NCBI GenBank assembly: GCA_016210005.1
Contig: JACQVA010000097.1
Coordinates: forward strand, 1 to 64,000
DNA length: 64,000 bases
Source of the DNA: Deltaproteobacteria bacterium
Lineage (GTDB): Bacteria; Desulfobacterota; Binatia; HRBIN30; JACQVA1
Direction of reading: 5' to 3'
Shown here: piece by piece, positions 21,773-35,988 of the stretch
Layout of the letters: each line of letters starts with the position of its first letter
Position numbering within the stretch: the first letter of the stretch is position 1
Position numbers and translations under genes: made by a program
The notes under the pieces: generated by a model
The model's input: the letters and a program-made list of their open reading frames with translations, nothing else
Told to the model about the DNA's origin: nothing
Databases searched by the model: none

Positions 21773-24700
21773 ATGAACAGGGGCACACAGAATACCAAGC
21801 CGCTCTTCATCCTATCCCTTCTGGGTATAGGAGTCGCTGTGTCGGCCCTGACGCTCGCTAGTAGCGCTTTCGCGCGGGGTCCGATCTACCTCAAAGATCC
21901 AAGCGGCAGCGCCGTCGCCGCGGGTAGTAGCACGCCGTACAGCCCGAAGATGACGTGCTCCGGTGCGACTGCGGACGCCGTGCAGTTCTTCGGTTCCCCG
22001 CCCGTGATCGGCAACGCCGGCTGCCACGCCAGCATCATAAATGGCTACGGTCTGAGCCAAAACGACGGAGAGTGCAAGGTTTTCGATGCCGGGGCACCCG
22101 CTTGGATCACGGTGAGCGCGGCCACTCAGGACGCATGCAACACCGCTGGCGGTATGTGGTTCCCCGTTCTCGGCGCCTTATACGAGAGCGATCCGGCCAG
22201 CGCCTCCAAGGACCACGGGGCGGGCTCGCCTGCGTATGCCGTGCCCTTCGCGCGCCACGGTATCTCCGCCGGCTATCACTTCCAGCAGGGGCGCGATGCC
22301 CAGTCGGGCGAGGCCCCGCGGAACTACTTCCGGCTGCCGGGATTCGCCAGCTCCCATGGGATGTTCGGCGGCTTCAAGGACATTTTCGGCCGCCAGCTCG
22401 CCTCCCCTAGTGACAGCTCGCCCGCGCTCTTCGATATGAGCGCGTATGACTTCGCCACTTCGCAGTGCGCCTGGTGTCACCCCGGCGGCGGTAACATGGA
22501 GTATGACCGGGAAGGATTCCGCTACGACGGGGTTGGCGGGCTGTTCCAGAGCGGACCCAACCCCAGCCCCAAGGAAGGTGACTACTACAGCTTCGACCCT
22601 AATACCGGCACACTCGTCTCCAAGGCCCCGGACTGGCAAGCCGGCGGCGCTGGGGAAATCGACTGCCTCATTTGCCACACCGAGACAGCGTACGGTTACA
22701 GCCATCTGGCGCGCAGTCATGCGCTGTCGGAACGAAAAGCCCCCGGATACGCCGCCTCGTTCGGACTCGCGGGTCCAGACGGCGCGAGCGGATACCTGAG
22801 CATCCCGGCCTTGGGCGGTAACGGTGTGAACCCCGATGTCAGCAGCATGACGTGGAACGAGCAGAACTGGTTCTTCAGCTGGCTCACTTACACCAGCGTC
22901 TCAGGTGTCTACATCGAGGACGCCCGCCCCATCCCTCCGAAAGAGGCTTGCGCCCAGTGCCACTTCGCCGACGCGAGCGTCACCGGCAACGGTCCCGCGG
23001 GCCAGCCTCTGGGCTATAGTTCCTTCCAAAAGATCCTGCTCGCGGGAACCGTTGACGACGCCGACATGGTGCTGCCGGGAGGCAAGAACAGCGTGGACTG
23101 GAGGATCTTCCACGGCCGCGCCGGCAGCGACAAGCGGGGCATGTCCATCAACGATGCCAACAACCCCGACGCGCATATTGACGCCGGCACCAACTGCTCG
23201 ACCTGCCATTATCTCTTGGGCGCCGCGGGCAACTATCAGGACCCCTGCCTCGTCTGTCACACCGAGTTCTATGGCGCTCCGTTCACCGATCCGGTAACGC
23301 CCGCGACCCCCGAGATATTCCCCGCCGTGACCGACGGTAGCGGCAACCTCATTCAGCCGGCGCGCGAGGTCTTCAAGATCGATCACCAGTTCGCCCGGGG
23401 CAACAGCAAGCCGGAGGGAGCCGGGACCGACCAGTTCGACAACACGGTGACCTGCCAGAGCTGCCACATCAACCGCACCCACCCCAACACCGGCTCCGCA
23501 CCAGACCCGGCTTCCGCGCACGCGGCTTTTCCTGCCCTGCATTTCGATCGCATCGATTGCAAGACCTGTCACATCCCGCTGGTGAACGGGCCGATGAAAT
23601 TGGACACGGTTGATTTCACCGCCGGCTACTATCAGCAGGGCGCGCGCGAGCAGCGCAGCGCGGCCCCGTCGGGCATCGGCTTCAAGCCGCTGTATGTCTG
23701 GCGGACCAAGACCCATGACGGCAGCGGCATGCACATTGTGCCGGTATCCGTGGTCAGCGTTGCCTGGTGGGGCGACGCCCTCTCGTGGAACCTCGACGGC
23801 AGCGCGGCGGCGCAGCGGCCGGTATTACAGCGCACGGCGCAAGTGGCAGCTGAGGCCCTGCGTGCCGCTTACGGTGACAGCGACGGCAACGGTACCTACG
23901 ATTGGCCGCTGAACCGCGCGCAAGGGGGCGACGTTGCCCTGATCGTCAACACGGCTCCGGAAGTGACCGACATGGTGGCGCGGCTGCGAACCGGCGGCGT
24001 CGCGGAGCCGGTCATGAACCTGTCCTTCGAGCAGCAGACCGTCAATCATAACGTGGCGCCGAAATCGTCCGGCAGGATTCTCGGCTCGCCGGCCGGCGGC
24101 GGTTGCGTCATGTGCCACTCCAGCAGCGATCCGAATAGTCCCGACTACAGCATCAAGTCGGTGGGCTTCTTCGACAAGACCTTCACCCTCTTCGGTCAGC
24201 CCACGGACGGCGGCGCCGGGATCGTACAAACCGCCGTGAATATCGCCGGCAGTGCCACCGCGGCCGAGCGCATCAAGGCCGTGTTTGACACCAAGAGTGA
24301 TACCGGGAGCGCGGTGGTCATCGATTTGTCCGGCTCCCCCGGGAGCACCATTCGTAACACTCTCAATCAAGACGAGCTTCTGGGCCGCGCCGCCTACGCC
24401 GACCCCACCGTCGCCGGTGTCCCTTCACCTACCGCGATGTTCTCCTACGTTCTCAACGGGCTGAGCGTCGCCTTCGATGCCTCCGCCTCCTACTGCCCGA
24501 GCGGGAACTGCTCCTATTCGTGGAACTTCGGCGATTTGTCGGCCGGTTCGGGAGTGGCGCCGTCGCACACCTACGGCGCCGCCGGCACCTTCAGCGTGCG
24601 CGCCACGGTGCTGGACAACGTGAACTTCACCCAGCACACCAAGTCCTCGCCGATTTCGGTCGTGGCCGCCGACCTGCCGCCGCTGGCGAGTTCCGTGTTC

Positions 24701-25366
24701 AGCTTCGGCGCCGACACCTGGACGGCAACCCTCGTCGATGCCTCGGTGGATGACGACGGCGTGCGCCTGGTGACGGTGAACTGGGGTGACGGCACCATGC
24801 TGGCGACGGGATCGGCAGGGGATACCTTTACCCACACCTATTTGAACGTCGGTCCGTTCACGATTACCCACAAAGCCATCGACACGCTGGGCCAGCAGGA
24901 CAGTGAGGCCCTTACCGTCAGCCCGGCCTACTTCACTATTGCCGGTACCGTCGTGAAGAGCGCCACCGCTACTTGGGCCGGTGGTCAGTGCACCATCCAG
25001 TGTTCGACCCAGACGGTCTGCGCCAGAACCGCCGGCGCAAATCCACCCGGCTGCGGGGCAAATTGGAATGCGAGCGCCGGCCGCTGCGAGAAGCCGATAG
25101 GTACGGCTTACGCCAGTCACACCTTCGCCTCGACGCAGCAAGCCTGCACGGCCGTGGTCTCGGCCAGCGTTCAGGTGAAGAAGGGCACAAGCGTTGTCAG
25201 GACCGTCTATACGGCGGCCAATGGGACGTTCTCGGCCGGCTCGCTCAAGCCGGGCACATACACACTGACGGTGACCAAAGCCGGCTACAGCTTCACCGCG
25301 CCGGCGGCCACGATTGCGCTGGGGCCGAGCAGCCTGGGCAACGGCATCGCCGCCACCGCCCCGTGA
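21773..25366 (+). CDS. Secreted octahaem (or larger) cytochrome c with PKD domains
   Basis: A 1197-residue exported electron carrier. The signal peptide runs to about 35 (LASSAFA|RG). Eight CxxCH haem sites start at residues 232, 298, 393, 475, 492, 561, 596 and 778. A further His-preceded cysteine pair, C62 and C84-H85, could form an extended CX21CH site, because the flanking YSPKMTC and CHASIINGYG match the surroundings of a normal first haem motif. Two PKD-like beta domains follow (about 885-970, YSWNFGD...HTYGAAGTF; about 975-1050, VNWGDG...HTYLNVG), then a Cys-containing linker and a carboxypeptidase-regulatory-like module (GTFSAGSLKPGTYTLTVTKA). The layout suggests surface display or release. 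The stop lies 16 bp before the second cytochrome, so they form an operon. Confidence 0.9.
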   Translation: MNRGTQNTKPLFILSLLGIGVAVSALTLASSAFARGPIYLKDPSGSAVAAGSSTPYSPKMTCSGATADAVQFFGSPPVIGNAGCHASIINGYGLSQNDGECKVFDAGAPAWITVSAATQDACNTAGGMWFPVLGALYESDPASASKDHGAGSPAYAVPFARHGISAGYHFQQGRDAQSGEAPRNYFRLPGFASSHGMFGGFKDIFGRQLASPSDSSPALFDMSAYDFATSQCAWCHPGGGNMEYDREGFRYDGVGGLFQSGPNPSPKEGDYYSFDPNTGTLVSKAPDWQAGGAGEIDCLICHTETAYGYSHLARSHALSERKAPGYAASFGLAGPDGASGYLSIPALGGNGVNPDVSSMTWNEQNWFFSWLTYTSVSGVYIEDARPIPPKEACAQCHFADASVTGNGPAGQPLGYSSFQKILLAGTVDDADMVLPGGKNSVDWRIFHGRAGSDKRGMSINDANNPDAHIDAGTNCSTCHYLLGAAGNYQDPCLVCHTEFYGAPFTDPVTPATPEIFPAVTDGSGNLIQPAREVFKIDHQFARGNSKPEGAGTDQFDNTVTCQSCHINRTHPNTGSAPDPASAHAAFPALHFDRIDCKTCHIPLVNGPMKLDTVDFTAGYYQQGAREQRSAAPSGIGFKPLYVWRTKTHDGSGMHIVPVSVVSVAWWGDALSWNLDGSAAAQRPVLQRTAQVAAEALRAAYGDSDGNGTYDWPLNRAQGGDVALIVNTAPEVTDMVARLRTGGVAEPVMNLSFEQQTVNHNVAPKSSGRILGSPAGGGCVMCHSSSDPNSPDYSIKSVGFFDKTFTLFGQPTDGGAGIVQTAVNIAGSATAAERIKAVFDTKSDTGSAVVIDLSGSPGSTIRNTLNQDELLGRAAYADPTVAGVPSPTAMFSYVLNGLSVAFDASASYCPSGNCSYSWNFGDLSAGSGVAPSHTYGAAGTFSVRATVLDNVNFTQHTKSSPISVVAADLPPLASSVFSFGADTWTATLVDASVDDDGVRLVTVNWGDGTMLATGSAGDTFTHTYLNVGPFTITHKAIDTLGQQDSEALTVSPAYFTIAGTVVKSATATWAGGQCTIQCSTQTVCARTAGANPPGCGANWNASAGRCEKPIGTAYASHTFASTQQACTAVVSASVQVKKGTSVVRTVYTAANGTFSAGSLKPGTYTLTVTKAGYSFTAPAATIALGPSSLGNGIAATAP

Positions 25367-25382
25367 GCAAGAGGGCGCCGCC

Positions 25383-28300
25383 ATGACCGGCGAATTGCCG
25401 TGCGCCCAGCAGCGCTTACCCGCAATCGGACGGCCAGCGCCGCTGTTGCTTGCGCGGTTGTGCGTCTTTCTCCTGCTGAGCGGCGGGGCGCTTCCCATCG
25501 CGGCACTCGACTATCCCCATAACGCCGCCAACAGTATTGACTGTCGCTCGTGCCATCAGGTGCACCAGGGAGTCCTGCCAAGCTGGCTGCCAAGTTCGGT
25601 GCAGCACGTGCCCGAGAACCTCGACAACACCCCGCGCAACTCCTGGTGTTGGAGCTGTCACAACGACATTGTGGCCCCATTCGTGAAGACGCACTCGAGC
25701 TTAGCGGTCGGCAGCAAGTACGGCAGTTGGAGTGTCGAGTGCACAACTTGCCACGAGGTCCACAAGCAGCGGCAGCTCCAGAGCTACGGTAGTGCGAGCG
25801 ACCTGTTCGCCGGCGTGTTGACGGCGGTGTCGCCGCAGACGATGACGATGGCGGGCGCCGGTTGGACTCCCGACCGTTGGGCGGGAAACATCGTCATCGG
25901 CGATATCGCGGATCGCTCCGTTAACTATCACATTGTGTCAAACACGATCGACACCCTCACCGTCACAGGGACAGTCGATCAGGCGCGTAGTCGCCCGGGC
26001 GACGCCTTCGCGATTGCTTACGGCGGGCTCATCCGGGCCACCGTCACGACGCCCAGCAGCGGTCCGCGAGCGGTGCGCTTCTTTGCCGATACCGGCTCCT
26101 ACTCCTTCGCCGACGGCGACAGTACTTACGACGGCATTTGCGAGATCTGCCACACGCAGACCGGCCACTTCCGCAACGACGGCAGCGCCCCCGATCAGAA
26201 CCACGCCAACATCGGCGGCGGGGCTGGACGCAAGTGCACCACTTGCCACACTCACGCGGCTGGGTTTGCATTTGCCGGGCACACCGGCGCTACCGGCGGC
26301 AGCTGCGGTACGGCCACCACCTGCCACGGCACCCAAGGCTCGCATGCAATCCACGTGGGGCCGCAGTTGGGGTTGGGCTGCGCCACCTGCCACGACACCG
26401 CCAACTTGCCGCTCTTCAATGACGCGCAAGACCTGGCGATCACTACGGCTTGCAGCCCCTGCCATAGCCCCGGTGGCAGCTACGACGGTGTGAACGATAC
26501 GGTGGTCGGCGCCAAGAACAACTGGGAGACCGGGGTCTATGCCGGGGCGGAGTTGAAACCCGGTAAGGAGCATTGGTGCATCACCTGCCACGACGAAGTA
26601 CCCTCGGTCGTCCAAGGCCGAAGCGCGCCGAACAAGGTGGGAAACAACAGCAGCTACGGGTACTACGTCACCGGACACGGCCGGCCGGCAACATACCCGG
26701 CGATGTCGTGGCAAGCCACCTCAGGTGACAGCGGCAACCCCGGAGCGAACCAGAGCTGCACCAATTGCCACGACGCCAGCGCGCCACACATCGGTGCCAG
26801 CAGCGAGCGGTTGCGTTATCCGAACAACCAGGACAACACGCTCTGCACCCAATGTCACGAACCGGGAGGCCCCGCGCACCACTCTCCGGACTTCTACACG
26901 ACGTCCGCAGCGTTCGAGACCTCGGCCCACGCCGGCGCGCTCTGTACCGATTGCCACGAGGTGCACGGAACCTCGTCCGCTGCGATGACGAAAGCCAACA
27001 AGGAAGGCCTCTGTGATTCATGCCACAGCGGTCACGCCGGTCACGCTCTTCATGTGGAGTTCGCAACCGGCGGCAAGAGCTATTCCCTCGAATGCGTCTC
27101 TTGCCACAATGTCCACATCGTGACCGGACTGACGTCGGCGGCGAATCCCAATGTCTCAGCACTGACCAGGTTCACCAACAATACCGCGGTGTGGGGGGAC
27201 AAGAACGGCCAGAAGATGAGCAACTACGCCGGCAGCGGCAAGTATCAGACGCCGAGCGGCGATGTTATGGATGGCACGCAACTCCCAGACTACGTCACCT
27301 TCTGTCTCGATTGCCACTCCACTCCGCAGGCGGAGTTCGGGCCGCACGGCAGCATCAGCTGGTCCAGTGACAACCATGGGCTCGTCTCTGCCAACGTCCC
27401 CAACGGGGGCGGCGCCGCCCCGAACTGGTTCTCGTTCGGCGTGGCGGAGGGCTGGGATGGCGACGATTGCACCGGCGCTCAGGCGCAGTGCTGGCCGGTT
27501 ATTCCGCGAGGGCGCGGCGAGATGGTCTGGTCGCGCTCCGCTTACGCCCAACAGGAGCGGATCGCCGGCGTCAACTTCGTGCTGTCGTGCAGCGACTGCC
27601 ACGTTACGCACGAGGCCGGAATCGGCGCCAAGATGAGAGCGACGATCAACGGCAACCCCGGTGGCCGCTCACACAATACGCTCTGCAACGCGTGCCACTA
27701 CTATTACTCGGATTGGCACGCCGGCATGTCGTGCGGTAACGCCGGTTGTCACAACGCCGGCAATTGGGGTCCGCGGGATTGCGACAATTGCAACACTATC
27801 CATGGCATGTATCACGCGAGCGGCGCCGGCTCGACTCGGACATGGAACGGAGCGCTCGTGCTCGATCTCCGCTTCGAGGGCGGCCTGAACGACTCCGGCA
27901 GCTTCCGGCTCCACGGTCGCTGGTACTCAGCCGCCGGCTCATTCGCCGCCGGCAGGGTCGGCCAGGCGGCAGTGTTTGGCGAAGACGTCGGCGTGGCAGT
28001 CGGCACCAAGGACAACTATTGGTCCACGGACGAAGGCAAGCACGGCACCTGGAAATATACGGAGATGAAATACGCCACCACGCTCGAAGCCTGGGTCAAT
28101 CCGAACGATGACAGCAAGAGCGAATATACGATTTTTCGTAAACACACCGGCTACGACTCGGGGGGGTACGGCTTCTCGCTGAAACAAGTCGGCGCCACTC
28201 TGCGCGCGGCTTTCAACATGCAGGCCGACAACAACGGCTTCGCTCAGGGCGGCGCCGCCGGGGTGCGCGGCGCGTACAGCGCGGTCGCCGTACCGCTCAA

Positions 28301-30170
28301 CCGCTGGACCCATGTCGCCGCTGTCTTCGACGGCGCCGGCCCGGACCGTAATCCGGCCGATCCGCGGGTGGGCAGAGTGCGGATCTACGTCGATGGGGAG
28401 GACGTGACCACCAGCGATGCCACCGGCAACAGCATGCAGCCGGAAGCCGGCGAGACATCGATCTTTGCGTATTCGGAGAACAGCCCGTGGAATCAGACCA
28501 TTTGCTACCAAGCGCAGTGGTGTGCTTCGGAGTTCGCGGTCGGAGGTTTCGACTGGGAGGCAACCAACTTCCTGGGCATGATCGATGAGGCCAAGGTCTG
28601 GAACGTGAGCAAGGACGCCGGCTATTTCGCCGCGGTCGATGCGCAGTCCGCGCCGCGAATCAGCACGGTCACGGGGATGTACGGAAGCGACGAGCTGGAA
28701 GTTCTCTTCTCGGAAGGCGTCTATGCCACCACGGGCGGCAGCTTGCAGCCGGACGATTTCACCCTCACCGATCTCGACGACGGGCGCACGATAGTCGGCG
28801 TCAGTCACGGGGCCGGGGCGGGTAGGGCAACCGTGCGCTTGAGCGCGCCGCTGGATACCGCGAATGACGCCGGAGTTGATGCACTGGCTCCCGCCAGCAC
28901 CTCCGTCTTCGACGAGTACGACAACGCCGCCGCAACTGACGCTGTCACGATTACGGTGGCGGGTGGATGCCCCAGCGGCGAAACCAGCTTCCAGTTCGAC
29001 GAGCCCGCGGCCACCGCTGCCATCGTTGACCAACAGCAGGTGCTGTTCGGCGCCGTCAACGATCCGGCGCAGACGCTGTCGGGCGATGGCTACTACACCG
29101 GCGATGGCGTCAATAACTACGTTGACTTCGAGTACAACCCCACCTGCCTGCAGGCGTCAACGAGCATGACGATCGAGGCCCGCATCAAGCCCACCGGCCT
29201 GGCCGGCACCGCCCAATACGTTAAGCGTGTGTTCGCTCGGGACGGAGGCGGCAATTACCAGATGTCGGTCTGGCGCAACAACAGCTGGGCGGGCGGCACG
29301 TTCAACGCCCCGAGCGGCACGGCCGCAATCGCCTTCTGGGTTAGTCCGGTCGATGCTCACGGTGGTAGTGCATGGAAGCCGGTGCTGACCGACTACGTCG
29401 CCTGCCCGATCGTGTCGGATCACTGGTATCGAGTGAAAGCCGTTTGGAGCTCGAACAAGCCCGGCGGCGTACCGGGCCAGTTCTTTGTGCCGGCGGACAT
29501 CTACGTCGATGACGAAGGAACAGACGGAAGCGGAACGGGAGAGAGTTGGTCGGGCAGCGCCAACTGTACCAACAGCAGTCAATCCTACAGCAGCGATATC
29601 TCCAAGCTCTACACCGGAGATCAGATCAAGACCGCTGACGGTGCCTTCACCATCGGCGCTAACGTCACCAATCACGCCAACAACGTCTTTCAGGGACTGA
29701 TCGACTGGATCAAGCTCGACCTCACGGCGCCCGCCGGCACGCTCGGCCTCGAGCGCACCGGCATGCCCGCGGTGACGCCCACGGCCAGCGCATTCCGCTT
29801 GCCGACGACAGTGAGCCAGCACACGCCGGCGACGCCGATGGCAAAGCCGCCCGATGCCTCGACGCCGACACCGGCAGCCACGGCGACCCGCACGCCGGCG
29901 CCGACTCCCATACCAACCGTGACCCCTTCCGCCACCGCGACGCCGACCGAAACCCCCGCCATCACACCGCCGACCCACAGCTCAGAGGTGGCCCACCCGC
30001 GCCCACGCCAGAGACTGCGCCGATCGCGGCCGAAGGCCGCCGAATCCGTACGCCTTGGAACTTCACCCGGCACAAGGTGCAGCTGGCCGCCGCGTGGCCG
30101 AGATTGTCAGGGCACAGCTTTGCCAGCTCATGCCCTTTGGGGTCTCCCCAGACGTATTTCGCAGGATTGA
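25383..30170 (+). CDS. Giant secreted multihaem cytochrome c (16 CxxCH plus two non-standard sites) with LamG-like domains
   Basis: 1595 residues. An N-terminal hydrophobic export signal (about 20-42) is followed by an 800-residue haem region. Canonical CxxCH sites start near 54, 89, 120, 253, 285, 333, 357, 399, 459, 488, 521, 544, 571, 641, 736 and 768. In addition there is a CX5CH (CGTATTCH, 308), a CX4CH (CGNAGCH, 784) and a decayed CDNCN at 800. Many distal histidines (EVH, SHAIH, GHALH) can serve as sixth ligands. Two LamG/concanavalin-like modules follow (LDLRFEGGLNDSG...; FQFDEPAATAAIVD...) with an Ig-like segment between them (LEVLFSEGVYATTGGSLQPDDF), then a Thr/Pro-rich linker and a basic tail that may be out of frame. 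ATG 25383 chosen. Likely partner of the preceding cytochrome. Confidence 0.9.
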   Translation: MTGELPCAQQRLPAIGRPAPLLLARLCVFLLLSGGALPIAALDYPHNAANSIDCRSCHQVHQGVLPSWLPSSVQHVPENLDNTPRNSWCWSCHNDIVAPFVKTHSSLAVGSKYGSWSVECTTCHEVHKQRQLQSYGSASDLFAGVLTAVSPQTMTMAGAGWTPDRWAGNIVIGDIADRSVNYHIVSNTIDTLTVTGTVDQARSRPGDAFAIAYGGLIRATVTTPSSGPRAVRFFADTGSYSFADGDSTYDGICEICHTQTGHFRNDGSAPDQNHANIGGGAGRKCTTCHTHAAGFAFAGHTGATGGSCGTATTCHGTQGSHAIHVGPQLGLGCATCHDTANLPLFNDAQDLAITTACSPCHSPGGSYDGVNDTVVGAKNNWETGVYAGAELKPGKEHWCITCHDEVPSVVQGRSAPNKVGNNSSYGYYVTGHGRPATYPAMSWQATSGDSGNPGANQSCTNCHDASAPHIGASSERLRYPNNQDNTLCTQCHEPGGPAHHSPDFYTTSAAFETSAHAGALCTDCHEVHGTSSAAMTKANKEGLCDSCHSGHAGHALHVEFATGGKSYSLECVSCHNVHIVTGLTSAANPNVSALTRFTNNTAVWGDKNGQKMSNYAGSGKYQTPSGDVMDGTQLPDYVTFCLDCHSTPQAEFGPHGSISWSSDNHGLVSANVPNGGGAAPNWFSFGVAEGWDGDDCTGAQAQCWPVIPRGRGEMVWSRSAYAQQERIAGVNFVLSCSDCHVTHEAGIGAKMRATINGNPGGRSHNTLCNACHYYYSDWHAGMSCGNAGCHNAGNWGPRDCDNCNTIHGMYHASGAGSTRTWNGALVLDLRFEGGLNDSGSFRLHGRWYSAAGSFAAGRVGQAAVFGEDVGVAVGTKDNYWSTDEGKHGTWKYTEMKYATTLEAWVNPNDDSKSEYTIFRKHTGYDSGGYGFSLKQVGATLRAAFNMQADNNGFAQGGAAGVRGAYSAVAVPLNRWTHVAAVFDGAGPDRNPADPRVGRVRIYVDGEDVTTSDATGNSMQPEAGETSIFAYSENSPWNQTICYQAQWCASEFAVGGFDWEATNFLGMIDEAKVWNVSKDAGYFAAVDAQSAPRISTVTGMYGSDELEVLFSEGVYATTGGSLQPDDFTLTDLDDGRTIVGVSHGAGAGRATVRLSAPLDTANDAGVDALAPASTSVFDEYDNAAATDAVTITVAGGCPSGETSFQFDEPAATAAIVDQQQVLFGAVNDPAQTLSGDGYYTGDGVNNYVDFEYNPTCLQASTSMTIEARIKPTGLAGTAQYVKRVFARDGGGNYQMSVWRNNSWAGGTFNAPSGTAAIAFWVSPVDAHGGSAWKPVLTDYVACPIVSDHWYRVKAVWSSNKPGGVPGQFFVPADIYVDDEGTDGSGTGESWSGSANCTNSSQSYSSDISKLYTGDQIKTADGAFTIGANVTNHANNVFQGLIDWIKLDLTAPAGTLGLERTGMPAVTPTASAFRLPTTVSQHTPATPMAKPPDASTPTPAATATRTPAPTPIPTVTPSATATPTETPAITPPTHSSEVAHPRPRQRLRRSRPKAAESVRLGTSPGTRCSWPPRGRDCQGTALPAHALWGLPRRISQD

Positions 30171-30201: not shown

Positions 30202-33081
30202 TCACTTCTTGTGGTGCGCGCTCCCCACTGGGTGGCGGGCGCGCCAACGGCGCACGCCCAACAACAGCGTCACCGCCACCGCGACCAGAAGTGCCGCAGG
30301 CGAGGCTGCCGGCGCGATTACGGTGCGGTCCGTGCAAGTTCCTTCCTGGCCCGCAACGTCGCATTGCTGCCGCAGGCCGCCGCAGGAAGAGTTGCAGCAC
30401 ACGCCGTCGGCGCAAAAGCCTGAAGCACACTGGGCAGGATCGCTGCACGGGTCGCCATCGTCATGCTGCGGCGGCGGGCAGCCGCAATCCGGCTGGCACT
30501 CCCCAGGGCAGGCGACGTCATCTGTGCCGTCGCACTGCTCGCCCGGATCGAGATTGCCATCGCCGCAATCGGGAGGGCAGGCGCCGCTGGACTGCTCGAC
30601 GCATTGCGGCCCGCTCTGGCTATCCACGCACAGGTTGGAGCTGCACACCCCGGTTTGATTGCAGCTGATCGAAGGCTCCCCGCGGCACTGTAGGCCGGCG
30701 GGGCTGCTGACGCACTTGTCGCCGCTGGTGCAGGCGCTGCCGTCGTCGCACGGGTCGTTTTCGTTTTTACCATCGCAGGGCGTGGTCGAACAGGTGGCCG
30801 GACAGGTATCGCCGACCTCATCGCAGCAGTTGCCGGCCCCGACGCAGGGATTGCCCGCGTGGTTGCCGCAGACGCCCAGAGCACACGTGTCGGCCCCGTT
30901 ACAGTATGAGCCGTCGTCACACGCGCCCTGACTCGCGGTTAGCTGGCAGTTACCGAATTCACCAACGAAGATGCACTGGTCGGTAGTGCACGGATTGCCG
31001 TCGTCGCAGCCGGCAGAGGTGCTACAGGGCAGACCTTGCTTGGTGCCGCTGCTGCCTCCCGGCACCCCGTCGCGGCAGACCGCACCGAACTTGGTGACCG
31101 CCGACTCCGCGATTACCAGCGGCTGGGCTGCGTTAGGATCGTACTGGCAGAGATCGAAGCAACCGCTCTTCTCGGTCTGGTTACAAAGCCATTGCTGGCC
31201 TGATGGCAACGCGCTCTGCGAGACCGGAAAGAGAACCTCGGTAAGATTCGCCGCCACCGGCGGAGCGATGGCGACGTTCTCGCAGTTCGGGTCGGGGCAC
31301 GGGCCCCCGTTGACGCCGAAGCCGCAGTCGTAATCAGCGGGAACTCCGGCCTTGGGGAGGCAGGCCGAATAAATGCTGTCCGGCAGGAAGAGGCAGATGT
31401 TACACGGGAACTGAAGCGGCTTGAGCAAGTCGCGCGGGTCGCCGGGCGTCAACTGCGGCGGCGGCGGTGGTGGTTGATCGGCGGGCGGCGGCTGGTTGAG
31501 ACACTCGGACACGAACGCCAGGCCGTTTTCATTGCCGGCACTGAAGCTGGAGAACTGGCTATATGATTGCGGCCCCGGTTGCGGCGGCACGCCGATGATT
31601 ATTCTGGCCTCCGCAAGCGGCCCAAGGGCAACGTTGTCCTGGACCTGCGGGTTGATGACCGGAACCTCTTTGTGAATGTGGAAGTGCTTGGTGTAAAAGC
31701 CGAGGTCGATCGAGAAATCGATGCGGATTCCTGCCTTGACCAGCAGCTCGGCGAAGGTCTCGAGGGCGCTGCGCAGCACGACGGCGGTGTCCGGAGCGGG
31801 ATTGCAGTCCGGGGGCAGGCTCTTGAACCGGCCTTCCTCGAAGGAGAGCTGAAACTGGCTTGAAAATGCCGCGTCGAGATCCGAGGTGGCGTACACTTCG
31901 GCGTTATCGAGGCTGAAGGGCGGAATGCTCAGCTTGATGCCAAGCGCATCGAGGCCATAACTAACCTTGACCCCGGCACGAAAGCGGTTGGCCGGCTTCT
32001 TCTCGTCCGCGGCACGCGCCACCGAAAAGTCGAAGTCAGGCCGCGGCGGAAAGTTTCCCGGCGGCGGGCTCCACGCCGGGCTGGCGTGATCGGGGTCACG
32101 ACCGCCCAGCCCAAGGATCGAATCCCAGCCGGAAGTCGGCTCAAGGGATTGCCCTGCCAGATTCGATGCCAGCAGTGCGCCGCTCGAATCGCCGACATCG
32201 AGCAAGCGGCGAGTGGCGCACGACAGCGCACGCTCGGTACGAAAGTTCCCGTCGGCCCAGTTGGACGTCGCCGCCTCGAAATTGGCTTCGTAGTCGAGGC
32301 GCGGCGTCACGCTCACCGGCCCAATCGGGGTGTAGATCGAAAACGGGCCGACCTTCAGGGTGAGGTTGTGTTCAAGGTCGTCGCTGTTCATCCGCAGCAG
32401 CCACGGGTCTTCAAAGGCGTAGTCGGCACAAGTGATGGGGCCATCGGAATCGTGCACCAACTCCGCGGTAAAGTTCTGGGTCTGGTTGTTCACGCAGCCG
32501 AGCACCGGCAGGCAGAAGTTGACCGAGTGGTAGCCGCGCATGCGGCGGGCGGGCAGGTTGAAGTTGACGAATCCGACGCGCTGGTCGATGGCTATGTTGC
32601 CGATCACGATCGGCAGGCTCTTGCTCAGGTGGATGCCGGGTCCGCCCAACGACGGGTTGCGAGCCGGCTTGGCCAGGTCACGCAGTAGACACAAAGCGGC
32701 TTCGCCGATCGGCTGCCCTCGTCCGCCCAACCCGCAGTAGTCGATCGGAACCGGCTTGACGGGGCTGAGGTCGGTACCGGCCACCAGGTCGGTGATCGGG
32801 TGCCGGCAGCATTCACACCTGCCGCACTGCGCCGGTGCGATGCCGAGATTGCAGAGATCCGTGATGACCTCTTCGACGAAGCTGCCCACTCCCGAGGGAC
32901 AAGCGCTGGCCGTGCAGGCCACGCTCGTTCCCAACAGCGGCACACCCGTCTCACCCCCTTGAGTGGTGATTCCCGGGCACTCGGCGGGTGCCGCAAGAAC
33001 CGGCGGCGCAGGTAACAGCAGTGCCGCCAAGAACACGGCGCGCCAAAGGCCTCTACGACCGCCAAGTCGGCCAGACGACAT
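30202..33081 (-). CDS. Large secreted cysteine-rich protein with C-terminal sorting tail
   Basis: A 959-residue protein, function unknown. ATG at 33081 is chosen because it gives a clear signal peptide (RAVFLAALLLPAPPVLAAPA); the open frame upstream overlaps ileS and is rejected. The middle (to about 700) is beta-rich with scattered cysteine pairs. The last 250 residues are dense in Cys-rich repeats of the DUF4215/Myxo-disulfide kind (CDDGNPCTTDQC, CDDGSYCNGADTC, CGDGNLDPGEQCDG). It ends in a hydrophobic segment plus Arg cluster (PAALLVAVAVTLLLGVRRWR) that resembles PEP-CTERM/MYXO-CTERM sorting signals but without a clear processing motif. No CxxCH is present. It is convergent with the cytochromes and divergent from ileS. 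Confidence 0.85.
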   Translation of the reverse strand: MSSGRLGGRRGLWRAVFLAALLLPAPPVLAAPAECPGITTQGGETGVPLLGTSVACTASACPSGVGSFVEEVITDLCNLGIAPAQCGRCECCRHPITDLVAGTDLSPVKPVPIDYCGLGGRGQPIGEAALCLLRDLAKPARNPSLGGPGIHLSKSLPIVIGNIAIDQRVGFVNFNLPARRMRGYHSVNFCLPVLGCVNNQTQNFTAELVHDSDGPITCADYAFEDPWLLRMNSDDLEHNLTLKVGPFSIYTPIGPVSVTPRLDYEANFEAATSNWADGNFRTERALSCATRRLLDVGDSSGALLASNLAGQSLEPTSGWDSILGLGGRDPDHASPAWSPPPGNFPPRPDFDFSVARAADEKKPANRFRAGVKVSYGLDALGIKLSIPPFSLDNAEVYATSDLDAAFSSQFQLSFEEGRFKSLPPDCNPAPDTAVVLRSALETFAELLVKAGIRIDFSIDLGFYTKHFHIHKEVPVINPQVQDNVALGPLAEARIIIGVPPQPGPQSYSQFSSFSAGNENGLAFVSECLNQPPPADQPPPPPPQLTPGDPRDLLKPLQFPCNICLFLPDSIYSACLPKAGVPADYDCGFGVNGGPCPDPNCENVAIAPPVAANLTEVLFPVSQSALPSGQQWLCNQTEKSGCFDLCQYDPNAAQPLVIAESAVTKFGAVCRDGVPGGSSGTKQGLPCSTSAGCDDGNPCTTDQCIFVGEFGNCQLTASQGACDDGSYCNGADTCALGVCGNHAGNPCVGAGNCCDEVGDTCPATCSTTPCDGKNENDPCDDGSACTSGDKCVSSPAGLQCRGEPSISCNQTGVCSSNLCVDSQSGPQCVEQSSGACPPDCGDGNLDPGEQCDGTDDVACPGECQPDCGCPPPQHDDGDPCSDPAQCASGFCADGVCCNSSCGGLRQQCDVAGQEGTCTDRTVIAPAASPAALLVAVAVTLLLGVRRWRARHPVGSAHHKK

Positions 33082-33204
33082 GGCCCGCCCAGCTACCACA
33101 AAACCTTCCGGCCTCCAACCGGTGCTGCTCGCTCGCGCGCAAGCGTTGGGCGAATTGAATCCGTGCATCGCCGCTGGTAAGAGTCCCGCACACCGCTGTT
33201 CGTC

Positions 33205-35988
33205 ATGGACTACAAGCACACGCTCAACTTGCCCAAGACCTCGTTCCCGATGCGCGCCAATTTGCCGCAGCGCGAACCCGAGATGCTGGCTCAGTGGGAG
33301 ACGATGAGCATCTACGAGCGCTTGCAGCAGGCAAACGCCGGGAAGCCGAAGTTCATCCTGCATGACGGCCCGCCGTACGCCAACAACAACATCCACCTCG
33401 GCCAGGCGCTCAACAAGATCCTCAAGGACTTCATCGTCAAGCTGAAGTCGATGTCCGGCTACTTGGCGCCTTACATTCCGGGCTGGGACTGCCACGGCCT
33501 GCCGATCGAGCTGCAAGTCGAGAAGAAGCTCGGCCGGGGCCGCGGCGGCGCGGACCCGGCCGAGGTCATCAGCCGCTGCCGCGCGCACGCGCTGCAGTTC
33601 GTCGATATCCAACGCGAGGAGTTCAAGCGGCTCGGCGTGTTCGCCGATTGGGAACACCCGTACTTAACGCTTGACCCGCAATACGAGGCGGCCGAGGTGC
33701 GCGAGCTCGGCCGCTTCATGGCCTCGGGCGTGCTCTACCGGCGCAAGAAGCCGGTGTACTGGTGCCCGTCGTGCGTGACCGCGCTGGCCGAAGCCGAAGT
33801 CGAGTACGCCGATCACCAGTCGGCGGCAATCTATGTGGCTTTCAAATTGAGCGAGCCCTTACCGGCGGCGCTGGCGCCACTGCGCGGCCGCGAGGCGGCG
33901 GTGATCATCTGGACCACCACGCCGTGGACTTTGCCGGCCAACCTGGCGATCGCATTCCATCCCGATTTCGAATACCTCGCCGTCGAAGTCGACGGCCGGG
34001 TCTACCTGGTCGCGCACGGGCTGCTGGCCGCCACCGCGGCGGCGCTGAAATGGGCGGCACCGCGCGAGCTGGTGCGCATCAGCGGGGCGGAGTTGCACGG
34101 CGGCCGCGCACGCCATCCTTGGCTCGCCCGTGACTCGGTGTTTCTACTTGGCAGCCACGTAACCCTGGAGCAGGGCACCGGCTGTGTGCACACGGCGCCC
34201 GGGCACGGGGCCGAGGACTACGAAATCGGTGTCGCCAACGGCTTGGACGTCTACTGCCCCGTCGATGGCCACGGCAAGTTCACCAAGGACGTACCCGAGT
34301 TGGCCGGCCAGTTTGTGTTTAAAGCCGACGAGGCCGTGCTCGGTATGCTGCGGGCCGCGGGCGCGCTACTGGCGCAGCAGCGCTATACCCATTCCTACCC
34401 CCATTGCTGGCGGTGTAAACAGCCGGTGATCTTTCGCGCCACGGAGCAGTGGTTCATCCCGATGGAGAAGAACGATCTGCGCGCCCGGGCGCTGTCGGCG
34501 ATCGACCGGGTGCAGTGGATTCCGCCGTGGGGCCGCGACCGTATCCGCGGCATGATGGAAAGCCGCCCGGACTGGTGCATCTCGCGCCAGCGGGTGTGGG
34601 GCGTGCCGATCACGGCGGTGTACTGCGAGGGCTGCGGCGAAGCGATCGCGGATGCCAGCGTGGCCGAGCACGCGGCGGCGCAGATCGCCGAGCACGGCTC
34701 CGGCATTTGGTTCACCGGCAGCAACGAGCAATTGCTGCCCGCCGACCTCCGCTGCCCGAAGTGTCACGGCCGGCAGTTCCGCCGCGAACGCGACATCCTC
34801 GATGTCTGGTTCGACTCCGGCGTGAGTCACGCGGCGGTGGTGGAAACCCGCCCGCAGCTCGGCGGGCGCGCCGATCTCTATCTCGAAGGCAGCGACCAGC
34901 ATCGCGGCTGGTTTCACACCTCGTTGCTGACGGCGATCGGCACCGGTCGGCCGGCGCCCTACGGGGCGGTGCTGACGCACGGCTTCTTCGTCGATGCCGA
35001 GGGCAAGAAGATGTCAAAGTCGCTCGGCAACGTGGTGGCGCCCAAGGAGCTGACCAGCAAGTACGGCGCCGAGATCCTGCGCCTGTGGGTGTCGGCGGCG
35101 GACTATCGCGACGACATGCGCATCTCGCCCGAGATCCTCGAGCGCTTGCTGGAGGCCTATCGCCGCATCCGCAACACCGCGCGCTTCCTGCTGGGCAATC
35201 TCTATGATTTCTCCCCCGACCGCGACCGTGTGCCGCCGGCGGAGATGCCTGAGCTCGATCGCTGGATCGTGCACCGCACCCAGGCGCTGATCGCCCGTTG
35301 CCGTGAAGCCTATGATAACTACGAGTTTCATCTGGTCTACCACAGCCTGAACAATTTCTGTGTCGTTGATCTCAGCGCGCTCTATCTCGACATCGTCAAG
35401 GACCGGCTCTACTGTTCGGCGGCGGGGAGCCGCGAGCGGCGTGCGGCGCAAACGGTGCAGTGGCTCGTAGTCGATGCCTTGGCCCGGCTGATGGCGCCGA
35501 TCCTGTCGTTCACCGCCGAGGAGATCTGGCAACATACGCCGGCAAGCGCCGGCAAGACGGCGAGTGTGTTTCTGGCCGGCTTGCCGGCGGCGGCGGCTGC
35601 GACCGACAGCGAGGCGCTGGGCGCCCGCTGGGAGCGTCTGCTGGAGGTTCGCGCGGCAGTAACCAAGGCCTTGGAAGAGGCCCGGCAGAGCGGGCAGATC
35701 GGCCACTCACTCGATGCCCGCGTGCAGCTGGCGGCCGCCGACGGGCTGCGCCCCGCTCTGGCGGCGGCGGCCGCGGATCTGCCGGCGCTGTTCATCGTCT
35801 CGCAGGTCGAGTTGGTCGAGCGCTTGGAGGTGGAAGCCAGCCCGCTGTTGCGCGAGCTCAGGGTGCAAGTGCAGCCGGCGCGCGGCGCCAAGTGCGAGCG
35901 GTGCTGGAACTACAGCGAGGCCGTGGGCACACACGCGGATCATCCCGGCTTGTGCGATCGCTGCCAGGGCGTGGTGGCGAGCGCATGA
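33205..35988 (+). CDS. ileS: Isoleucyl-tRNA synthetase
   Basis: Charges tRNA-Ile. The 927-residue class I synthetase has the HIGH-type motif HLGQ at 64-67 (PPYANNNIHLGQALNK), the editing domain (WTTTPWTLPAN, GTGCVHTAPGHG), the GWDCHGLPIE segment, KMSKS at about 603-607 (GKKMSKSLGN) and a C-terminal zinc ribbon (CERCWNYSEA...CDRC). This is the bacterial type 1 form. ATG 33205 matches the usual N-terminus (YKHTLNLPKTSFPMRANLPQ). The stop overlaps the lspA start (ATGA), a common ileS-lspA arrangement. No T-box leader was seen in the 123-bp upstream spacer. Confidence 0.98.
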   Translation: MDYKHTLNLPKTSFPMRANLPQREPEMLAQWETMSIYERLQQANAGKPKFILHDGPPYANNNIHLGQALNKILKDFIVKLKSMSGYLAPYIPGWDCHGLPIELQVEKKLGRGRGGADPAEVISRCRAHALQFVDIQREEFKRLGVFADWEHPYLTLDPQYEAAEVRELGRFMASGVLYRRKKPVYWCPSCVTALAEAEVEYADHQSAAIYVAFKLSEPLPAALAPLRGREAAVIIWTTTPWTLPANLAIAFHPDFEYLAVEVDGRVYLVAHGLLAATAAALKWAAPRELVRISGAELHGGRARHPWLARDSVFLLGSHVTLEQGTGCVHTAPGHGAEDYEIGVANGLDVYCPVDGHGKFTKDVPELAGQFVFKADEAVLGMLRAAGALLAQQRYTHSYPHCWRCKQPVIFRATEQWFIPMEKNDLRARALSAIDRVQWIPPWGRDRIRGMMESRPDWCISRQRVWGVPITAVYCEGCGEAIADASVAEHAAAQIAEHGSGIWFTGSNEQLLPADLRCPKCHGRQFRRERDILDVWFDSGVSHAAVVETRPQLGGRADLYLEGSDQHRGWFHTSLLTAIGTGRPAPYGAVLTHGFFVDAEGKKMSKSLGNVVAPKELTSKYGAEILRLWVSAADYRDDMRISPEILERLLEAYRRIRNTARFLLGNLYDFSPDRDRVPPAEMPELDRWIVHRTQALIARCREAYDNYEFHLVYHSLNNFCVVDLSALYLDIVKDRLYCSAAGSRERRAAQTVQWLVVDALARLMAPILSFTAEEIWQHTPASAGKTASVFLAGLPAAAAATDSEALGARWERLLEVRAAVTKALEEARQSGQIGHSLDARVQLAAADGLRPALAAAAADLPALFIVSQVELVERLEVEASPLLRELRVQVQPARGAKCERCWNYSEAVGTHADHPGLCDRCQGVVASA

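Follow-up and report, generated by a model that had tools for sequence, protein, structure and literature searches.

A tandem pair of multihaem cytochrome genes in a deltaproteobacterium, one of them from a predicted selenocysteine/cysteine octahaem family

Two adjacent multihaem protein genes were found in a 64,000-nucleotide stretch of DNA from a deltaproteobacterial genome (the whole stretch is referred to as the window). Our best reading, held tentatively, is that their products form an electron-transfer pair that is secreted or sits at the cell surface, consisting of a wire (gene 2) and a reductase-fold protein (gene 1) without the selenocysteine (Sec) or cysteine of its family.

The gene pair and its surroundings

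Gene 1 and gene 2 are on the same strand with a gap of 16 bp. Their features were as follows.

21773..25366, + strand: gene 1, multihaem protein of 1197 aa with 8 CxxCH sites, one CX21CH site and a PKD and CarboxypepD_reg tail
21956..22027, + strand: haem-1 site of gene 1, CX21CH (C62, C84, H85), located by alignment to relatives
22376..22378, + strand: Lys202 codon of gene 1, AAG; most relatives have UGA (predicted Sec) or Cys there
22466..24118, + strand: canonical haem sites of gene 1, at residues 232, 298, 393, 475, 492, 561, 596 and 778
24449..24658, + strand: PKD domain of gene 1 (Pfam, E 3e-17)
25151..25315, + strand: CarboxypepD_reg (Ig-like) domain at the end of gene 1 (Pfam)
25383..30170, + strand: gene 2, multihaem protein of 1595 aa with a LamG-like domain and a Thr/Pro-rich C-terminal part
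25542..27752, + strand: haem region of gene 2, with 16 CxxCH, a CX5CH at 26304-26327 and a CX4CH at 27732-27752
28071..28454, + strand: LamG/concanavalin A-like domain of gene 2 (Laminin_G_3, Pfam, E 1.3e-17)

The length of gene 2 was counted from an ATG; the mechanical ORF begins at an upstream TTG (25314). An earlier note on this DNA had reported tandem multihaem genes, and both ORFs were confirmed, with the 8 and 16 CxxCH motifs far above the shuffle means of 0.024 and 0.04. The canonical count is too low for both genes, since each also possesses non-canonical haem sites. The long beta-domain tails that the note described were recovered by Pfam as the PKD, CarboxypepD_reg and Laminin_G_3 domains listed above, and the PKD domain is followed by a second PKD-like stretch (about residues 970-1049). 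As to the export signals it reported, signal-peptide-like N-terminal stretches were recognised in both proteins by eye only, and the two proteins are presumably exported. The Sec/Cys position and the CX21CH haem had been overlooked.

Promoter and terminator scans gave a roughly chance-level number of matches. No riboswitch was detected 5′ of gene 1 at gathering score, and the one weak match was far under its cut-off. The two genes are presumably co-transcribed. Contamination is an unlikely source of the pair, since the GC and GC3 of both genes resemble those of their housekeeping neighbours and the window belongs to a longer contig (106,768 bp) from a genome of 5.9 Mb with 97.6% completeness and 4.5% contamination. 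The flanking genes in the window encode DNA polymerase IV, a convergent Cys-rich protein, isoleucyl-tRNA synthetase and a type II secretion cluster. The Cys-rich frame (30202-33657, minus strand), which converges on gene 2, is long and has no Pfam match; one stretch of it resembles an export signal, and its C-terminal segment is hydrophobic and contains basic residues. Another multihaem PKD protein is encoded elsewhere in the same genome (L086:3-3626, G000 contig C127, minus strand), with at least 16 CxxCH and truncated by the contig boundary. It shares 49% identity with gene 1 in the PKD part, and in the haem part it shows weak similarity to a protein encoded next to the nearest relative of gene 1.

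The two proteins differ from known conduits, as had been proposed: by model score they are not MtrC/OmcA or ExtKL, and the MtrB/PioB porin (PF11854) of an MtrCAB/PioAB-type conduit had no match anywhere in the 97.6% complete genome. The view of the pair as one new conduit was not upheld, as the genes belong to two families. A search for co-occurrence in the phylum-sample genomes recovered homologues of each gene, but these were neither adjacent nor strictly co-occurring.

Gene 2

Judged by sequence, gene 2 is a cytochrome of a family separate from that of gene 1. Its CX4CH site reads CGNAGCH, and its CX5CH site (CGTATTCH) is conserved in the closest homologue found, a 1518-aa cytochrome in another genome (L081 in G154) that matches residues 44-535 with 39% identity (E 1e-105). 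The mass per haem is 4.5-5.0 kDa. Counting the query genome, 8 of the 395 phylum-sample genomes had relatives, and some of these are encoded by very large open frames. Those of L139/L149 (G376) and L141/L151 (G220) span about 3,390 and 4,790 aa and contain 19 and at least 15 CxxCH, respectively. Residues 449-652 are locally similar to DmsE/MtrA-type decahaem cytochromes (TIGR03508, E 4e-13). However, this partial match reached only 49.4 bits against a cut-off of 192.2, gene 2 has a LamG tail, and its closest homologue is, unlike DmsE/MtrA, another giant cytochrome.

The gene 1 family

With the query genome counted, 30 of the 395 genomes in the phylum sample had relatives of gene 1. A relative was also found on one contig labelled Nitrospirae, for which 13 of the 345 genomes of the corresponding phylum sample were positive. 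Within its own class, gene 1 was restricted to the query genome (1 of 148 genomes), and the viral contigs searched contained no relatives. The Cys pairs of eight haem sites were invariant across the 27 aligned proteins, which include the window protein and place it in the family; among the others, L112 alone shares haem site 492. For gene 1, all NCBIfam matches were below threshold, and none of its models covers the Sec/Cys octahaem family, which is apparently undescribed.

The gene 1 haem part matched no PDB chain in a sequence search, and structure prediction with one homologue gave a pLDDT of 25. A family profile built from the 27-member alignment had as its top PDB match the octahaem tetrathionate reductase (OTR) 1SP3 (E 8.9e-7), so that gene 1 probably has a fold of the OTR/NrfA/HAO superfamily. 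The CxTCHIP haem of the gene 1 family aligns with its counterpart in OTR, as does the last haem together with the His upstream of it. Unlike OTR, the family has an extra Sec/Cys site before haem 2, and the window protein adds a PKD tail. With the OTR model TIGR04315 the window protein scored 18.1 bits and its relatives at most 52, against a curated cut-off of 375. By these comparisons the Sec/Cys octahaem family is distantly related to OTR and is not part of the OTR family. The earlier note had named close homology across the full haem region with a characterised periplasmic enzyme as evidence against its proposal; no such homology was found.

The haem-1 site (C62/C84-H85) aligns with one that is invariant in all 27 relatives, and 21 residues separate its cysteines. 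Spacing at this site is variable in the family (CX2CH, CX4CH, CX7CH and CX8CH, with CX21CH in the window protein). Published long haem motifs are CX15CH in MccA, which requires a dedicated haem lyase, and CX14CH in OmcZ (PMC7096707, PMC6976685, PMC11208441). A literature search limited to spacings 14, 15 and 17 found no longer motif described. The genome encodes three PF01578 proteins. MccA/SirA sulfite reductase is likewise an octahaem enzyme with one long-loop motif, CX15CH (PMC7096707, PMC6976685). However, the long loop of gene 1 is a CX21CH at the first haem, and neither the gene 1 sequence nor the family profile had an MccA/SirA match in PDB.

The Sec/Cys position

Many relatives have a frame-breaking TGA at a conserved position between haems 1 and 2, a short distance ahead of the latter, in the context SSPGMxGKY-U-PPSNRQLA or PGQYGGRW-U-xPAP. 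The codons 3′ of the site (CGC CAG TTG GCG) were nearly fixed in UGA members and varied synonymously in Cys members. A SECIS-like hairpin with a stem of at least 5 pairs followed the site in 20 of the 22 UGA members and in none of the 11 Cys members (Fisher p 4e-7, an optimistic value, as the sequences have common ancestry). The two remaining UGA members had a four-pair version, recognised by eye. Sequencing error was rejected as the source of the TGA, because many independent genomes have it at the same position and the hairpin follows in nearly all of them. The in-frame UGA and the hairpin give strong computational support for Sec insertion, and the UGA relatives are therefore predicted selenoproteins.

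The window gene has AAG at this site and no SECIS-like hairpin after it, and is thus not a predicted selenoprotein. It departs from the family motif before haem 2, GMxG-x-x-[U/C], by Lys202 in place of Sec/Cys, in an ungapped alignment (GMFGGSCPSYSRRLA against GMFGGFKDIFGRQLA). Its closest relatives (L112, L113 and L115) carry Cys. In the tree it grouped with L112 (support 88/83), and both fell in a clade (100/99) that comprises Sec and Cys proteins. A separate clade (L047, L049, L055 and others) also had other residues at the site, with no single replacement, which indicates that Sec/Cys was lost more than once. Loss of the Sec machinery was rejected as the cause of Lys202, since the genome encodes SelB (over the cut-off) and tRNA-Sec.

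Neighbourhoods of relatives and other selenocytochromes

In the phylum sample of G527, giant relatives were clustered with other multihaem proteins, an NHL-repeat protein and a peptidyl-prolyl isomerase. A 669-aa protein in these clusters, without a Pfam match, might be a barrel. Short family members (L040, L042, L046, L050, L051, L056 and L122) were found within arsenic-type clusters, which hold LMWPc/ArsC-like, SBF/Acr3-like, ArsP, ArsR, ArsM-like, DsbD and thioredoxin genes. Cytochrome b561 was fused in L040 and adjoining in L042, L046 and L122. Because of this b561 association and the arsenic-type clusters, the shorter relatives suggest that the ancestral role of the family was that of a quinol-linked reductase. 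These features also suggest that the short members are a quinol-linked enzyme, hitherto undescribed, with a role in arsenic or arsenic/sulfur chemistry.

The ExtKL selenocytochrome of Geobacter (NF040886) is, like UGA members of the gene 1 family, a multihaem cytochrome with a predicted UGA-encoded Sec. Unlike them, it has five haems, with Sec after the haems in AGHxIPDGU. The window protein gave no NF040886 match at E 0.01 (cut-off 250 bits). ExtKL was rejected as a member of the same family, since profile comparison aligned only 98 CxxCH-rich columns and Sec is placed differently. At L041:10117-13540 and L130 (G017 contig C10), an ExtKL selenocytochrome gene lies shortly after a Sec octahaem gene, which puts two different predicted selenocytochromes side by side. 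In a 2026 review the multihaem c-type selenocytochromes comprise ExtKL and one TIGR04315 entry (PMC13188914). The latter, a GenBank selenoprotein, may belong to the gene 1 family, whose scored members were far below the cut-off of that model.

Possible roles of the pair

Cytochromes with more than 7 kDa per haem are classed as catalytic and those with less than 5 kDa as electron-transfer proteins (PMC7096707). Describing the pair as two cytochromes of one kind misses a likely division of labour, because the gene 1 core has 9.7 kDa per haem, the build of a catalytic protein, and gene 2 about 5 kDa, that of a wire. In our tentative reading gene 2, with 16-18 haems and a LamG tail, would anchor or dock at the surface and conduct along it. 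Gene 1 would be a 9-haem protein with a reductase-type fold, derived from the Sec/Cys octahaem family, that acts as an electron relay between gene 2 and a partner outside the cell. It would most likely be without the chalcogen chemistry of the family, since the nucleophile or ligand Sec/Cys is now Lys202 and haem 1 has a 21-residue loop. The reading builds on the genes, haem sites, domains, family membership, predicted Sec of the relatives and Lys, as read from sequence, and would further involve export of the proteins, their placement at the surface, electrons passing directly between them and loss of the ancestral chemistry. It is supported by the tandem 16-bp spacing, the PKD and LamG-like tails, the eight invariant haem sites, the 1SP3 profile match, the Lys at a site that is Sec/Cys in nearly all relatives, the mass-per-haem contrast and the type II secretion genes in the window. 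The lack of adjacency between gene 1 and gene 2 homologues elsewhere counts against it, and would suit a chance neighbourhood in which a giant adhesin-like cytochrome and a periplasmic octahaem protein, unrelated to it, each have a role of their own. Such a coincidence is improbable given the short spacing on one strand and the fact that both are multihaem proteins with beta-domain tails.

The main alternative, possible but on the whole unlikely, is that gene 1 remains enzymatically active, as a reductase acting on another small substrate. In this view Lys202 would replace Sec/Cys as a haem ligand or acid-base residue, and gene 2 would be the electron donor. Lys is the catalytic haem ligand in NrfA (PMC7096707), and by this analogy the activity of gene 1 may have been kept. 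The distant kinship with OTR, the catalytic-type mass per haem and the retention of all family haem sites, haem 1 being rebuilt and not lost, are in line with an enzyme. However, no structure puts Lys202 close to a haem, the prediction having the low pLDDT given above, and the other clade that lost Sec/Cys did so without any one residue replacing it. The restriction of gene 1 to one genome of its class, and the alteration of both the Sec/Cys that the family conserves and its short haem-1 motif, could also point to a decaying, horizontally acquired copy without function. This is very improbable, as the 1197-codon frame is open, all other family haem sites are intact and GC and GC3 are like those of the neighbours.

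A broader claim, which we consider unlikely, would join several of these points: that a natural series from Sec through Cys to Lys at an active site, together with CX21CH, has produced a cell-surface reductase with new haem ligation or chemistry, and that the parent family is a new class of selenoprotein reductases.

Very few families of multihaem cytochromes with Sec are known. A further family, present in both phylum-level samples, in which Sec and Cys were exchanged repeatedly and one member has Lys, would offer a test of the role of a chalcogen next to haem. The same family could show whether such proteins change between enzyme and wire.
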